This document shows, piece by piece, positions 30,049 through 34,990 of a stretch of 64,000 bases of DNA. A program made the translations under genes and the position numbers. The first letter of the stretch is position 1, and each line of letters opens with the position of its first letter. A model generated the notes under the pieces. The model had not been told where the DNA came from. It ran no database searches and saw nothing but the letters and a program-made list of their open reading frames with translations. The DNA is from Gordonia sp. PDNC005 (GTDB lineage: Bacteria; Actinomycetota; Actinomycetes; Mycobacteriales; Mycobacteriaceae). The DNA lies in contig NZ_CP070351.1 of the NCBI RefSeq assembly GCF_016919385.1, positions 2,170,001 through 2,234,000 of the forward strand. The letters run 5' to 3'.

Positions 30049-31211
30049 GCGAGTCGAACAAGGACCTCCCGACCGCTGAGGAACTCGCGGCGATGTCCAC
30101 CGAGGACAAGGTTCGTCTCGGCACGAACCTCGACGGTGTGGAGATCATCCACCGCACCGAGCGGTTCCCTGAACCGGGCACCCGCGCCGAGAAGCGCGCC
30201 GAGGCGACTGTCGCCATCTGGTTCACCCTCGCCGGGCTGCTCGCCCTTGCGGGAATGGTTCTCTTCATCTGGAACCGGTGGGAATTCACCATGCCGGAAG
30301 AAGAGGGCTACTGGGCCTACACGTTCTACACCCCGTTGCTCGGCGTCACCTTCGGCGGCGCGATCCTGGCGTTCGGTTTCGGCGTCATCCAGATCTCCAA
30401 GCGCTTCATCCCGCAGGAGATCTCGGTGCAGGACCGCCACGACGGCGGCTCGAGCGAGGTCGACAAGCAGACGATCGTCGCTGAACTCAGCGACACCCTG
30501 CAGACCAGCACACTCCCCCGCCGCAAGATGATCATCGGCTCCGCCGTGTTCGGCGTCGGAGCGATCGGTGTGTCGGCGGGCGTCGCAGCTCTGGGCGGTT
30601 TCATCAAGAACCCCTGGGCCAAGCGCGAAGACGCCGATCTCTGGCACTCGGGCTGGTCGACCAACCACAGCGAGAAGCCGGGCGAGACCGTCTTCCTGCG
30701 TCGCGACACCGGCAACCCGTACCAGGTCGTCCTGGTGCGCCCGGAGGATCTCGACGCAGGCGCCATGGAAACGGTCTTCCCGTGGCGCGTCTCGGACGGC
30801 TACGGCGACACCGAGCATTCGCGTCACAAGCTGCTCGAAGGCCTCCGTGCCGTCCGCAACCCCGTGATGCTGATCCGCCTCCGTCCCGAGGACAACAAGC
30901 GGGTCGTCAAGCGCCGTGGCCAGGAGAGCTTCAACTTCGGCGACTACTACGCGTACACAAAGGTGTGCAGCCACCTCGGTTGCCCCACCTCGCTGTACGA
31001 GCAGCAGACGCAGCGCATCCTGTGCCCGTGCCACCAGTCGCAGTTCAACGCGCTCGAGTACGGAAAGCCGGTCTTCGGTCCCGCCGCCCGCGCTCTCGCT
31101 CAGCTGCCTATCACTGTCAACAACCAGGGCTACTTGGTCGCCAACACCGCTATCAACGGCGGCGACTTCATCGAGCCTGTCGGACCGGCATTCTGGGAGC
31201 GTAAGTCATGA
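30045..31211 (+). CDS. qcrA: Rieske iron-sulfur subunit of bc1 complex
   Basis: Actinobacterial Rieske protein with three N-terminal membrane segments and a C-terminal [2Fe-2S] domain. The cluster ligands are in CSHLGCP and CPCHQSQF. The twin-Arg-like RRK before the third segment fits dual Sec/Tat insertion known for this family. I start at TTG 30045, which gives a TTGA overlap with qcrC and a beginning ([16 protein letters not shown]) like relatives; a GTG at 30027 is the alternative. 388 residues. The C-terminus overlaps qcrB (ATGA). Confidence 0.95.
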
Positions 31212-32827
31212 CGATCGCCGATCGCCTCGCCACGCAGGCAGAAGAGGTCGACTCGAGGTACCACCTGGCTGCGGGCATGCGCCGCCAGATCAACAAGGTC
31301 TTCCCCACGCATTGGTCGTTCATGCTGGGCGAGGTCTCGCTCTACAGCTTCATCATCCTGCTGCTGTCGGGCGTGTACCTGACGTTCTTCTTCGATCCGT
31401 CGATGGCGCACGTCACGTACGAAGGCGCATATCAGCCGCTCAACGGCGTCACGATGAGCCGTGCGTACGAGACCACGCTCGACCTCTCGTTCGAGGTCCG
31501 CGGCGGTCTGTTCGTCCGCCAGATCCACCACTGGGCGGCTCTGCTGTTCGCTGCGTCGATCATCCTGCACATGATGCGCATCTTCTTCACCGGCGCGTTC
31601 CGTCGCCCGCGTGAGGCGAACTGGGTCATCGGCTGCTTCCTGCTGCTGCTGGCGATGTTCGAGGGCTTCTTCGGTTACTCGCTCCCCGACGATCTGCTGT
31701 CGGGCACGGGTGTCCGAGCCGCCATGTCGGGCATCGTCCTGGGCATTCCGTTGATCGGCACCTGGGTCCACTGGGCTCTGTTCGGTGGCGACTTCCCCGG
31801 CGACATCATCATCCCGCGCCTGTACGTGCTGCACGTGCTGCTGTTCCCGGCCATCATCCTGGCCCTGATCGGCGCTCACCTCGCACTCGTCTGGTACCAG
31901 AAGCACACGCAGTTCCCCGGCCCCGGCCGCACCGAGAAGAACGTCGTCGGCGTTCGCATCCTCCCGGTGTTCGCTGCCAAGGGCGGCGCGTTCTTCGCGA
32001 TCGTGTTCGGTGTCCTCGCCGTCATGGCCGGCATCTTCCAGATCAACCCGGTCTGGAACATCGGACCGTACAACCCGGCGCAGGTGTCGGCGGGTTCGCA
32101 GCCGGACATCTACATGATGTGGACGGACGGTTTCGCTCGACTGATGCCTGCCTGGGAGCTCTACCTGGGCAACTACACGATCCCCGCCATCTTCTGGGTG
32201 GTCCTGGTGATCGGCGTGCTGTTCGGTCTGCTCTTCGGTTACCCGTGGATCGAGAAGGCCCTCACCGGCGACACTGCACACCACAACCTGCTGCAGCGTC
32301 CCCGTGACACCCCGGTTCGCACCGCCGCCGGCGCGATGGCCCTGACGTTCTACATCATCCTCACGCTGATGTGCATGAACGACATCATCGCCCTGAAGTT
32401 CCACATCTCGCTGAACGCGACGACGTGGATGGGTCGAATCGGCCTGATCGTCCTGCCGCCGCTGGTGTACTTCATCACCTACCGTTGGGCACTGTCTCTG
32501 CAGCGCAGCGACCGCGACGTTCTCTCCCACGGCATCGAGACGGGCATCATCCGTCGCGAGCCGAAGGGCGAGTACATCGAGATGCACCAGCCGCTGGGCC
32601 CGGTGGACGATCACGGCCACCCGATCCCGCTGCCCTACGAGGGTGCGGCGCTGCCGAAGCGCATGAACAAGCTCGGCTCGGCCGGCGCCCCCGGCACCGG
32701 TACCGTCCTCGTCCCGGACTCTCTCGAGGAGCAGGCGACCAACCGTCGTATCGCTCACGAGAACCACGACGCCGAGAAGAAGGCGCTCCAGGAACTTCAG
32801 GAAAAGGGCGGAAACCCGCTCGCCTGA
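31208..32827 (+). CDS. qcrB: Cytochrome b subunit of bc1 complex
   Basis: Quinol-oxidising membrane subunit with about nine segments and a long C-terminal cytosolic tail typical of Actinobacteria. The two heme b His pairs lie in the second and fourth helices ([32 protein letters not shown]), and the quinol-site PEWY-type region reads [13 protein letters not shown] here. 539 residues. This subunit is the target of imidazopyridine inhibitors in mycobacteria. Its stop is followed by a strong hairpin. Confidence 0.96.
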
Positions 32828-32843
32828 CGCTCCATCGCTTCAT

Positions 32844-32883
32844 CGAGAGAGGCCGCCTCGCATCCGCGAGGCGGCCTCTCTCG
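32844..32883 (+). terminator. Terminator of the ctaE-qcrCAB operon
   Basis: Perfect 18-base stem (32844-32861 with 32866-32883; core GAGGCCGCCTCGC) and a 4-base loop ATCC, 17 bases after the qcrB stop. The stem is very stable; the following U-tract is weak, as is usual in this order. Confidence 0.85.
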
Positions 32884-32909
32884 TATCCGCTCCCCTCCCC
32901 CACCGCCTT

Positions 32910-32973
32910 CCCGCGGCACTTCTCGTTCCCGCACTTCGTCGGGGCGAGGAGCGCGAACGAGAAGTGCCGCGGG
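32910..32973. repeat. Palindromic repeat, copy A, upstream of nuclease gene
   Basis: A 19-base perfect inverted repeat (32910-32928 with 32955-32973, core GCGGCACTTCTCGTT) around a 26-base loop containing GTCGGGGCGAGGAGCG. A second copy in the same orientation lies at 33945-34004. About 52 of 59 aligned bases agree. It follows the qcr terminator and precedes the start of the nuclease-like gene by 58 bases. Confidence 0.85.
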
Positions 32974-33031
32974 TACAAGCCTGTGGATACCGCCCTGGTC
33001 GGATCGCGGACTTCGCGCTTGGATACAGCGC

Positions 33032-33943
33032 ATGTGGACGACAGATGGTAACGGCGTGGTCAGACGGTCCGAGGCGCTCGACGCAGGCCGTACAGACGCG
33101 GACATCCGACAGGCGGTCCGGAGAGGAGAACTCCTCGTCGCCTGCCGGGGTTTGTACATACCCAGATGCAGTCTGCCCGTCGAGAAGTGGCGCCTCGAAC
33201 AAGAGGTCTATAAACGACGCTGCCTCTCCGAAGCCGACGCCGGGGCCGTCCTCAGTCACCAGTCCGCTGCTGCCGTCCTCGGCCTGGCGATGCTGGAACC
33301 GGACATGAGCCGTGTCCACGTGTCAGTACAAACCTCAGCCAACGGGAAACGCCGCGCCACGCGGCACATCCACACCAGCCTTGACGAGAATGATGTCATC
33401 TCCCTGGACGGCTTCCTGGTCACCAGTCCGGCACGCAGCGCTGTGGACGTAGCGCTGACCTCCGATTTCGCAGGTGCCCTCGCCGTGTTCGATTCTGCGC
33501 TGCGAATCGGAGTCGACCGTGCTGAACTCCAGGACCGCCTCGAGTCGGGCCGCCGACGAGGCATAGTCCGAGCGCGTGTTGCGCTGCGGTACGCGAACGG
33601 ATTGGCCGCGAACCCCGGCGAATCGTGGAGCCGGGCTCAGATGATCGAGGCACGCTTGCCAGTTCCCAGCCTGCAGTCCGAGATCACCGTCGAAGGCCGC
33701 ACCTACTTCAGCGACTTCGACTGGGATCTGCTGGTCATCGGCGAGTTCGACGGCCAAGGCAAGTACCTGGCGAACCTCCGCCCGGGCGAAGAGGTTGCTG
33801 ATGCGGTCCTGCGGGAGAAGGACCGCGAGAACGCGCTACGCCGGATGGGCTTCGAGATCGTCCGCTGGGACTGGACTGTCGCGAAACGTCGACAAGTCGC
33901 TGCGCGTGTTCGCCCGTACTTGGACGCCGCCGGTCTGTTGTGA
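33032..33943 (+). CDS. AbiEi-type winged-helix / DUF559 (Vsr-like) nuclease-fold protein
   Basis: 303 residues. Residues about 8-45 look like the AbiEi antitoxin winged helix (VVRRSEALDAGRTDADIRQA, RGLYIP). The middle contains the AbiEi-associated domain (AVLSHQSAAAVLGLAML, TSPARSAVDVAL). Residues about 195-285 match the DUF559 PD-(D/E)xK-type core: Glu197, Asp228/Asp230, Glu238 in IGEFDGQGKY with Lys244, then EKDRENALRRMGFEIVRWDW. No partner AbiEii toxin gene is beside it, so this is a solo member, as is frequent in Mycobacteriales. The gene stands between two copies of a palindromic repeat, where mycobacteria have Rv2197c/mmpS3. DNA binding is likely; nuclease activity is unproven. Confidence 0.8.
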   Translation: MWTTDGNGVVRRSEALDAGRTDADIRQAVRRGELLVACRGLYIPRCSLPVEKWRLEQEVYKRRCLSEADAGAVLSHQSAAAVLGLAMLEPDMSRVHVSVQTSANGKRRATRHIHTSLDENDVISLDGFLVTSPARSAVDVALTSDFAGALAVFDSALRIGVDRAELQDRLESGRRRGIVRARVALRYANGLAANPGESWSRAQMIEARLPVPSLQSEITVEGRTYFSDFDWDLLVIGEFDGQGKYLANLRPGEEVADAVLREKDRENALRRMGFEIVRWDWTVAKRRQVAARVRPYLDAAGLL

Positions 33944-33944
33944 T

Positions 33945-34004
33945 CGCGGCACTTCTCGTCCCCGCTCTCTGTCGGGGCGAGGAGCGGGGACGAGAACTGC
34001 CGCG
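33945..34004. repeat. Palindromic repeat, copy B, between convergent stops
   Basis: Inverted repeat of 23 bases (33945-33967 with 33982-34004, core GCGGCACTTCTCGTCCCCGC) with one mismatch and a 14-base loop. It shares GTCGGGGCGAGGAGCG with copy A. It begins one base after the nuclease stop and ends immediately before the stop of the convergent acetyltransferase, so it may serve both as terminator. A T-to-C change in its left arm against copy A is matched by A-to-G in the right arm. Confidence 0.85.
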
Positions 34005-34535
34005 TTACCAGACGTCGCCGGCGCGCCAGTCGCAGAGGAGGCGTGCGCTCGTGTCAATGGAGACTGTGGACGGAGTCCGGAGGATGAGGACCCCTCCCTC
34101 GTCGTCCGGTGTCATCGTCACACCGTTCGGTGTCAGGGCGCCCAGTGGACCTGTCCACGGCTCCCAGCCGCGTCGGAGATAGAGCGGCATTCCGTCGTCC
34201 GACGCCCCCAGCGCCCCGAGGTCGTACGCACTGCGGACTATCTCGTCGATCCGCGACATCAGCGCCTCGCCGATCCCCCGGCGACGCATGCGGGAGGCCA
34301 CGGCAACGGCTTCTACATAGCCGACGCGATACACGTCGTCTCCTGCGACCAGCTGACGCTGGACAACCGCCGCGTGACCGACAACACCGTCGGCGTCCTC
34401 CGCGATGACGTGGACGCCACCGAGAGCATGGTCGAAGTCGGAGGCCTCGAAGTCGTGTTCGAACGCTTCGTCCAAGAATGAGAACAGCGCCGACCGATCA
34501 TCGTCGGCCAGTTCGTGGGTATGACAAAGCCGCAC
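34005..34535 (-). CDS. Aminoglycoside 2'-N-acetyltransferase, AAC(2') family
   Basis: GNAT-fold enzyme. Family landmarks are FDHALGGVHVIAEDADGVVGHAAVVQR (in pieces FDHALGGVH and VGHAAVVQR), the acetyl-CoA loop VEAVAVASRMRRRGIGEALM, YLRRGWEPWTGP, and the ending TSARLLCDWRAGDVW, nearly identical to that of chromosomal mycobacterial AAC(2') enzymes. 176 residues. It could confer intrinsic tolerance to gentamicin/tobramycin-type drugs, or act mainly on a cell-wall substrate as suggested for mycobacteria. The only plausible start, GTG 34535, lies inside the stem of the terminator of the ctaC-ctaF operon, 39 bases after the ctaF stop, with no ribosome site. In M. tuberculosis the homologue is elsewhere (Rv0262c), so it is an insertion here. 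Confidence 0.8.
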   Translation of the reverse strand: MRLCHTHELADDDRSALFSFLDEAFEHDFEASDFDHALGGVHVIAEDADGVVGHAAVVQRQLVAGDDVYRVGYVEAVAVASRMRRRGIGEALMSRIDEIVRSAYDLGALGASDDGMPLYLRRGWEPWTGPLGALTPNGVTMTPDDEGGVLILRTPSTVSIDTSARLLCDWRAGDVW

Positions 34536-34559
34536 CCGGTATCCGGGTGCGGCTTTGTC
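34523..34559 (-). terminator. Terminator after ctaF overlapping the acetyltransferase start
   Basis: Perfect 17-base stem (34523-34539 with 34543-34559, core AAAGCCGCACCCGG) and a 3-base loop, 14 bases past the ctaF stop on the minus strand, ending in GCTTTGTC. The start codon of the AAC(2') gene falls inside its 3' arm. Confidence 0.85.
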
Positions 34560-34573
34560 AGATGCTGTGTGCG

Positions 34574-34990
34574 TCAGTGCTTCTCAGGTCCGACGTGGTA
34601 CTCGAACACGAGGCCTGCGACAGCAGCGAGGATCACGGCCACCATGGTGATCGAGAACCAGAAGTTGCCGGTCGCGAACCCGATCGCGAAGAGCGAGGCG
34701 CCTGCGGCGATTGCGATGGGCCAGTAGCTGTGCGGGCTGAAGAAGCCCAGCTCGCCGGCGCCGTCTTCGATCTCGGCGTCGTCGTAGTCCTCAGGGCGGA
34801 TCTCAACACGACGAGCAACGAACCGGAAGTACGTTCCCGCGATCAGAGCCAGACCACCCGCGAAGAACATGCACGTGACGCCGGTCCATTCGACGCCCGT
34901 CCGGTAGTAGTAGGTGCAGACGGCGTAGATGACGCCCATCAGAATGAAGAAGACTGCGAGGACCTCGAAGAGGCGTGCTTCGATCTTCAT
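34574..34990 (-). CDS. ctaF: Cytochrome c oxidase subunit IV
   Basis: Actinobacterial aa3 oxidase subunit IV, 138 residues with four membrane segments in two pairs ([21 protein letters not shown] and [16 protein letters not shown]; then [18 protein letters not shown] and [18 protein letters not shown]). The HSYWP and final FEYHVG motifs are typical. The start ATG overlaps the ctaC stop (ATGA). The counterpart by position is Rv2199c. Required for stable assembly of the supercomplex oxidase in mycobacteria. Confidence 0.93.

Follow-up and report, generated by a model that had tools for sequence, protein, structure and literature searches.

A gene encoding an AbiEi-type protein fused to a nuclease domain, bracketed by its own palindromes, in Gordonia sp. 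PDNC005 and related genomes

REPtrons (RAYT/TnpA-REP) consist of a single gene between its own cognate palindromes. As far as the available parts of two sources go, further copies of the palindromes are solitary and intergenic, mostly 3' of genes, palindrome and protein coevolve, and a genome holds repeat-specific units (PMC8266576, PMC3733652). AbiEi proteins of the AbiE type IV toxin-antitoxin systems bind inverted repeats of 23 bp, of which the S. agalactiae promoter has two and Rv2827c has four, so that an array of several sites is the expected target of such a protein; the accessible part of this source makes no mention of a downstream array of like kind for AbiEi or Rv2827c (PMC7319586). 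Here, a stretch of 64,000 nucleotides from Gordonia sp. PDNC005 (contig NZ_CP070351.1, positions 2,170,001 to 2,234,000; hereafter the window) was analyzed, in which a nuclease-like gene beside qcrB is flanked by two similar palindromes. The gene with its palindromes is called a cassette below, and the palindromes are called arrays.

The cassette works most like a REPtron. It has in common with REPtrons, to the extent that the sources describe them, the single gene between its own palindromes (the window gene and 80 of 100 Gordonia genes tested), solitary copies, intergenic siting mostly 3' of genes, a palindrome that coevolves with the protein, and several private units per genome. It differs in having an AbiEi part and a Vsr-like nuclease instead of a HUH/Y1 tyrosine transposase, no GTAG tag in either window array, and few solitary copies (one for the window family), and in that cassettes flip in place and occupy differing sites. 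With AbiE (AbiEi/Rv2827c) it shares the fold of residues 1-189 and a multi-repeat inverted array upstream, whereas the window gene lies beside cytochrome b and GNAT genes with no AbiEii (DUF1814) toxin, and the extra nuclease domain, the second array downstream and the solitary arrays are foreign to AbiE. Unlike the homing endonuclease I-Bth0305I, the protein has an AbiEi module that would aim it, its gene is free-standing rather than in an intron and bracketed by its own arrays, and its cleavage activity is putative. Unlike the Vsr mismatch endonuclease, it has another N-terminal module, and no methyltransferase was found among the neighbors scanned.

The gene and both palindromes were confirmed at the positions given by the original prediction (Table 1), with 88% identity between arrays A and B, and the two neighbors include no toxin partner, also as predicted. 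Array B starts 1 nucleotide from the stop codon of the cassette gene and occupies the whole space between the convergent stop codons of this gene and the GNAT gene. Local alignment of the 5' and 3' flanks of the window gene gave a score of 42.5. Of 598 intervals of gene size taken by sliding along the window, 3 scored 20 or more (maximum 25.5), and none of 272 other genes tested in 464 kb of this genome did so; a chance repeat was ruled out by these two controls. The control stretches came from the first 2.57 Mb of the 4.26 Mb and avoided known cassette places; gene calls for this control and for neighbor orientation relied on a rough GC3 criterion that failed to call the gene of the window itself (GC3 0.746). 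In the whole genome (4.26 Mb, one contig), the window palindrome has one other strong copy, which is solitary (894014-894082).

The single Pfam match of the window protein at E ≤ 1 was AbiEi_4. The predicted label, AbiEi-type/DUF559, held in its first half, whereas Pfam DUF559 (PF04480) gave no match at E ≤ 1. No match was found in NCBIfam or by sequence search against solved structures. By fold, residues 1-189 are of the AbiEi type with the two domains of an AbiEi antitoxin, and the nuclease domain has the catalytic fold of an EDxHD/Vsr-type homing endonuclease. Its closest relative by fold is I-Bth0305I, which strengthens the idea of homing. I-Bth0305I is of intron origin, and EDxHD is the label of its nuclease type. 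The candidate catalytic residues E197, D228, E238, D240, and K244 are invariant in 73 aligned sequences, and the cassette genes are under strong purifying selection.

A single case had been predicted; its generality, gene-specificity, and mostly fixed geometry are additions of the present analysis. Relatives of the protein were found at E ≤ 1e-6 in at least 58 of 59 Gordonia genomes and at E ≤ 1e-10 in 141 of the 200 genomes from the order, and their annotated names, where given, were mostly antitoxin or hypothetical protein. The 11 matches in the window genome comprise the protein itself, six proteins with 43-47% identity, and four with 28-33%. Close relatives of the window locus occur in Gordonia, the nearest genome being G024, which at this locus looks identical to Gordonia malaquae NBRC 108250. 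For the flank test, 250 nt upstream of each gene were aligned with the region around and after its stop codon (threshold score 20) in 11 own-genome genes, 29 best matches of other genomes, and 60 more among the matches listed; these 60 were picked without sight of their flanks, and 20 of them come from six close relatives, whereas the other 40 approximately follow the order of the list. The 80 genes with matched flanks include 7 of the 11 own-genome ones, and the median of all 100 scores was 38; among mismatched flank pairs 2% scored at least 20, and none of 120 shifted intervals from these loci did. With flanks of 300 nt, 19 of 26 loci in eight other genera of the order and 4 of 5 more distant loci (L152-L155, L157) reached this score, and the mismatched-pair rate was 1.5% over all 40 loci. 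By eye, L161 and L162 among these loci are partly tandem. The distant loci L152, L153, L155, and L157 have GACCACGT in common beside otherwise differing palindromes; L153 is labelled as a Spirochaetaceae metagenome-assembled genome, perhaps by a binning error.

The palindromes of different genes mostly have no sequence in common. In many arrays a gene-specific 7-mer recurs in the orientation > > < <, usually at a spacing of 19 bp from one like unit to the next and with 15-17 separating the inner units. A scripted consensus of four half-sites at lag 19 proved too noisy for most genes, and lags were therefore counted. A 7-mer repeat at a lag of exactly 19 was present in 100 of 200 Gordonia flanks, compared with 2 of 200 segments of the window; every other lag between 8 and 40 was seen in 1 to 12 flanks, except lag 38, twice 19, with 23. 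Counted by gene, the lag-19 repeat was found in 61 of 100, and on both sides in 39. In other taxa (62 flanks, 31 loci), lag 19 was found in 17 flanks and lag 20 in 12.

The arrays are coupled to the protein. Arrays of two different genes resemble each other when the proteins are more than 80% identical and are mostly unrelated when identity is less than 60%, although some low-identity pairs score as high as 36.5. At the same site, a gene's own two arrays were more alike than they were to the other gene's in 70 of 70 pairs below 70% identity, 10 of 17 at 70-80%, and 0 of 20 above, where pairs overlap and only matched-array genes entered, which favors a joint-change result. The median array scores differ widely, 33.5-38 within and 12-17 between genes. 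Both arrays change jointly, often completely, within 30-40% protein divergence. Of the protein, residues 61-120 track array similarity best (rho 0.53 versus 0.13-0.31 elsewhere; pairs at 50-85% identity). The window palindrome family occurs in 3 of 59 Gordonia genomes, whose genes, among the matches listed, are 100% (G000), 91% over part of the gene (G024), and 66% (G052) identical; with the same plan in 80 of 100 relatives, this supports the predicted self-contained, one-gene unit tied to its palindrome. The protein tree kept 95 of 100 proteins, leaving out those outside 230-345 aa. The 20 genes scoring below 20 were left out of the array-versus-protein, residue-region, arm-mismatch, and within/between analyses, and the four distant own-genome genes and out-of-length proteins were left out of all of these except the arm-mismatch counts.

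Cassettes were found flipped in place, with the arrays as breakpoints, in L018/L087 and L144/L145 (92-93% identical), in L097/L102 (74%), and in more diverged pairs; flank proteins matched across sides in 5 of 5 flipped same-site pairs tested. The copy of G024 at qcrB is inverted exactly between both arrays, and its last third is broken. Repeats spread evenly and a gene fixed at this site had been named as signs against a self-contained unit, and neither was seen: the gene lay within 1.5 kb of qcrB in 2 of the 30 genomes in which the qcrB surroundings were examined. At the L021 site, the cassette of G024 and G052 is inverted relative to that of the window genome and only 69% alike, while the flanks are 84-92% alike, and the gene is absent in the other 7 of 10 genomes. 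At the L127 site, G020 and G053 have the gene, G001 and G028 are without it, and four genomes gave no flank match. One pair, L016/L057 (66%), has the cassette and arrays but no flank protein in common, and the flank of L057 lies at 3.13 Mb in the window genome. L121/L138 (85% identical) was considered as a second relocation, with no flank protein match and a likeness that ends near the arrays; it was not counted because a weak match (61% over 518 nt, opposite flanks) allows a diverged flipped site. The genes on either side converge at 52 of the 83 loci whose neighbors could be placed and diverge at 3 (17 of 100 loci had no placeable neighbor), and 62 of 277 adjacent gene pairs are convergent in an own-genome sample. 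REPs show a comparable placement according to the available part of PMC3733652.

Solitary array copies are few. A scan of 400 kb of the own genome gave single copies for the L017 and L025 families, two copies for that of L021, and a dimer for that of L020, in total six copies or dimer halves over 11 families, and no gene match was found there. Array copies away from cassettes were also present in G052 (two, presumably solitary), G020, and G053, and G024 has a second solitary copy that occurs in this genome only (L331). One solitary copy stays palindromic in G052 through paired changes. The L020 family has a double palindrome of ~335 nt on each side (L020 1079-1413, 2442-2772), and the solitary copy of this dimer (L260 17571-17883) resembles a REP dimer. 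At the L021 site, G037 (L195) and G023 (L190) have no cassette and carry solitary palindromes of other families, of which the one in G023 resembles by eye that genome's own L076 cassette.

We consider it about an even chance that the window unit belongs to a large family of nuclease cassettes bracketed by palindromes, which would work in the manner of a REPtron or a homing gene although their parts are different. Every such cassette would encode one protein, an AbiEi module (winged helix and AbiEi C-terminal domain) joined to a Vsr/EDxHD-type nuclease. The AbiEi module may recognize short inverted half-sites arranged in a private array, and the protein would bind its own arrays, the 5' array doubling as an autorepression operator as for AbiEi. 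The nuclease is predicted to nick or cut at the arrays, and repair from the other homologous, symmetric copy could leave the cassette flipped in place and make the two arrays alike. Occasionally, the cassette or a bare array might be copied into another convergent intergenic site. The data agree with a product that recognizes its own arrays and acts on them. A symmetric target between symmetric copies would explain the flips, the joint change, and the insertion in either orientation.

More tentatively, and with somewhat less than even confidence, the cassettes may form an undescribed class of selfish elements in Gordonia and its order, with an antitoxin-derived reader and a homing-type nuclease coevolving with a private, fixed-geometry array, a target switch within 30-40% divergence, and insertion in either orientation. 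A new category is considered because the REPtron enzyme and the AbiE toxin are missing and the homing step is conjectural. In searches of an open-licence library, which mostly lacks subscription journals, no paper was found to describe the architecture, judging by titles and abstract openings. If the reading is true, the cassettes would represent a REP system invented a second time and independently, and would provide a natural series of nucleases whose sequence specificity is readable. From dozens of natural pairs of protein and target, with like geometry and different half-sites, a recognition code could be derived, and the common plan with private palindromes would give orphan "antitoxins" a testable role. 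It would also bear on the origin and persistence of palindromic repeat systems without a REP transposase.

Several observations weigh against this reading. Matched flanks are missing in 20 of 100 genes, of which 15 have a normal-length open reading frame (ORF) and five an abnormal one (L022, L060, L068, L089, L131), and 4 of 11 own-genome genes fail the flank test; by eye, the palindromes of L017, L019, L021, and L022 match too weakly or are clearly one-sided. The lag-19 repeat is missing in 39 of 100 genes, including the window gene and its closest kin, and G030, with a 63%-identical gene, gave no match to the window array at E ≤ 1e-6. Relatives were absent from 50,697 phage records and limited to four weak ones in 72,556 plasmid records (E ≤ 1e-5), and a phage- or plasmid-borne element was rejected on these counts. 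The site is common to 37 of 40 pairs that are more than 70% identical and have arrays, and moves are therefore rare. Three solitary copies examined are also in place in G024, and no cassette gene was found at these three sites in loci from nine relatives, so that homing into solitary arrays is unsupported there. The cassette-free sites foreseen by the prediction of a homing or mobile element do exist, while no target-site duplication, exact scar, or clean trace of excision was seen at them by eye, the relatives being too diverged. Ordinary homologous recombination between the 60-nt repeats could account for the flips.

The strongest competing explanation is a domesticated single-gene regulator or defence nuclease whose arrays serve as operators on either side, which we regard as unlikely, if less so than the other alternatives. 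The 5' array would serve autorepression and the 3' array looping or a block to read-through from the convergent neighbor, flips and homogenization would follow from ordinary repeat recombination, and the nuclease would target invading DNA with similar sites. The strong purifying selection, the relatives mostly at the same sites, and the match of PADLOC AbiEi profiles to all 73 aligned members fit such a gene, as do AbiEi and Rv2827c, which bind their repeats at their own promoters (PMC7319586, as far as available). Autorepression alone, however, does not require a 3' array, and the joint, often complete change of both arrays, the solitary copies away from any cassette, the presence or absence of cassettes by genome, and the window gene without an adjacent AbiEii toxin speak against this explanation.

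An unrecognized classical insertion sequence, with the palindromes as transposon ends and the PD-(D/E)xK-type nuclease as transposase, is improbable. A model for such a use of a nuclease is TnsA, a part of Tn7. The own-genome paralogs are at most 47% identical and have other palindromes, so there was no copy burst; no obvious target duplication was seen by eye, relatives stay mostly at the same sites, and plasmid or phage carriers are hardly found.

Least probable is a passive structure, terminators or 3'-end stabilizers of convergent neighbors equalized by gene conversion with no role of the protein, which would suit the convergent siting and the lean of arm mismatches toward G-T on the strand reading inward from outside the cassette (51 of 76 votes, p 0.004; G-T versus A-C on the gene strand 106:60 upstream and 60:97 downstream), but G-T and A-C occur about equally often when the two sides are combined (166 and 157), the lean persists where the neighbor points away (8 of 9 votes), the array sequence is gene-specific and follows the protein, none of the 272 other genes has matched flanks, and half-sites are spaced by 19 bp. 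An RNA hairpin as the sole cause of the palindromes was rejected on the same overall equality, though the inward lean is present.

Table 1. Positions of the cassette, its parts, and its neighbors in the window
Feature	Position	Strand	Remarks
Cassette gene	33032..33943	+	303 aa; AbiEi-type DNA-binding protein fused to Vsr/EDxHD-type nuclease domain (by fold)
5' palindromic array A	32910..32973	.	29-nt arms, 90% complementary
3' palindromic array B	33945..34004	.	23-nt arms, 96% complementary
Half-site GCACTTC, copy 1 in array A	32916..32922	+	
Half-site GCACTTC, copy 2 in array A	32931..32937	+	lag 15; relatives usually lag 19
Half-site GCACTTC in array A, opposite strand	32961..32967	-	
GTATCCACA, weakly DnaA-box-like, adjoins array A	32982..32990	-	2 mismatches to TTGTCCACA; candidate by sequence
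Winged-helix part (residues 6-43, Pfam AbiEi_4)	33047..33160	+	
Nuclease domain (residues 193-302)	33608..33937	+	
qcrB (cytochrome b), left neighbor, convergent with GNAT	31208..32827	+	
GNAT acetyltransferase, right neighbor	34005..34535	-	

The gene had been predicted to lie between qcrB and ctaF. On the left this is the case, whereas on the right the next gene is the GNAT gene, followed by that of cytochrome c oxidase subunit IV. No Rfam family reached its gathering score across 32600-34600. Perfect, terminator-like 18-nt inverted repeats lie after qcrB (32844-32883) and on the side where the GNAT gene starts (34522-34560). A 66% relative of the window protein (P0002) in Gordonia spumicola is named CTP synthase, an apparent misnaming. 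Between the 5' array and the gene start, 8 of the 11 own-genome cassettes (L017-L020, L022-L025) and 11 of 40 cassettes overall carry the DnaA-box-like TTGTCCACA with no more than 1 mismatch, compared with ~4% of 250-bp window segments.
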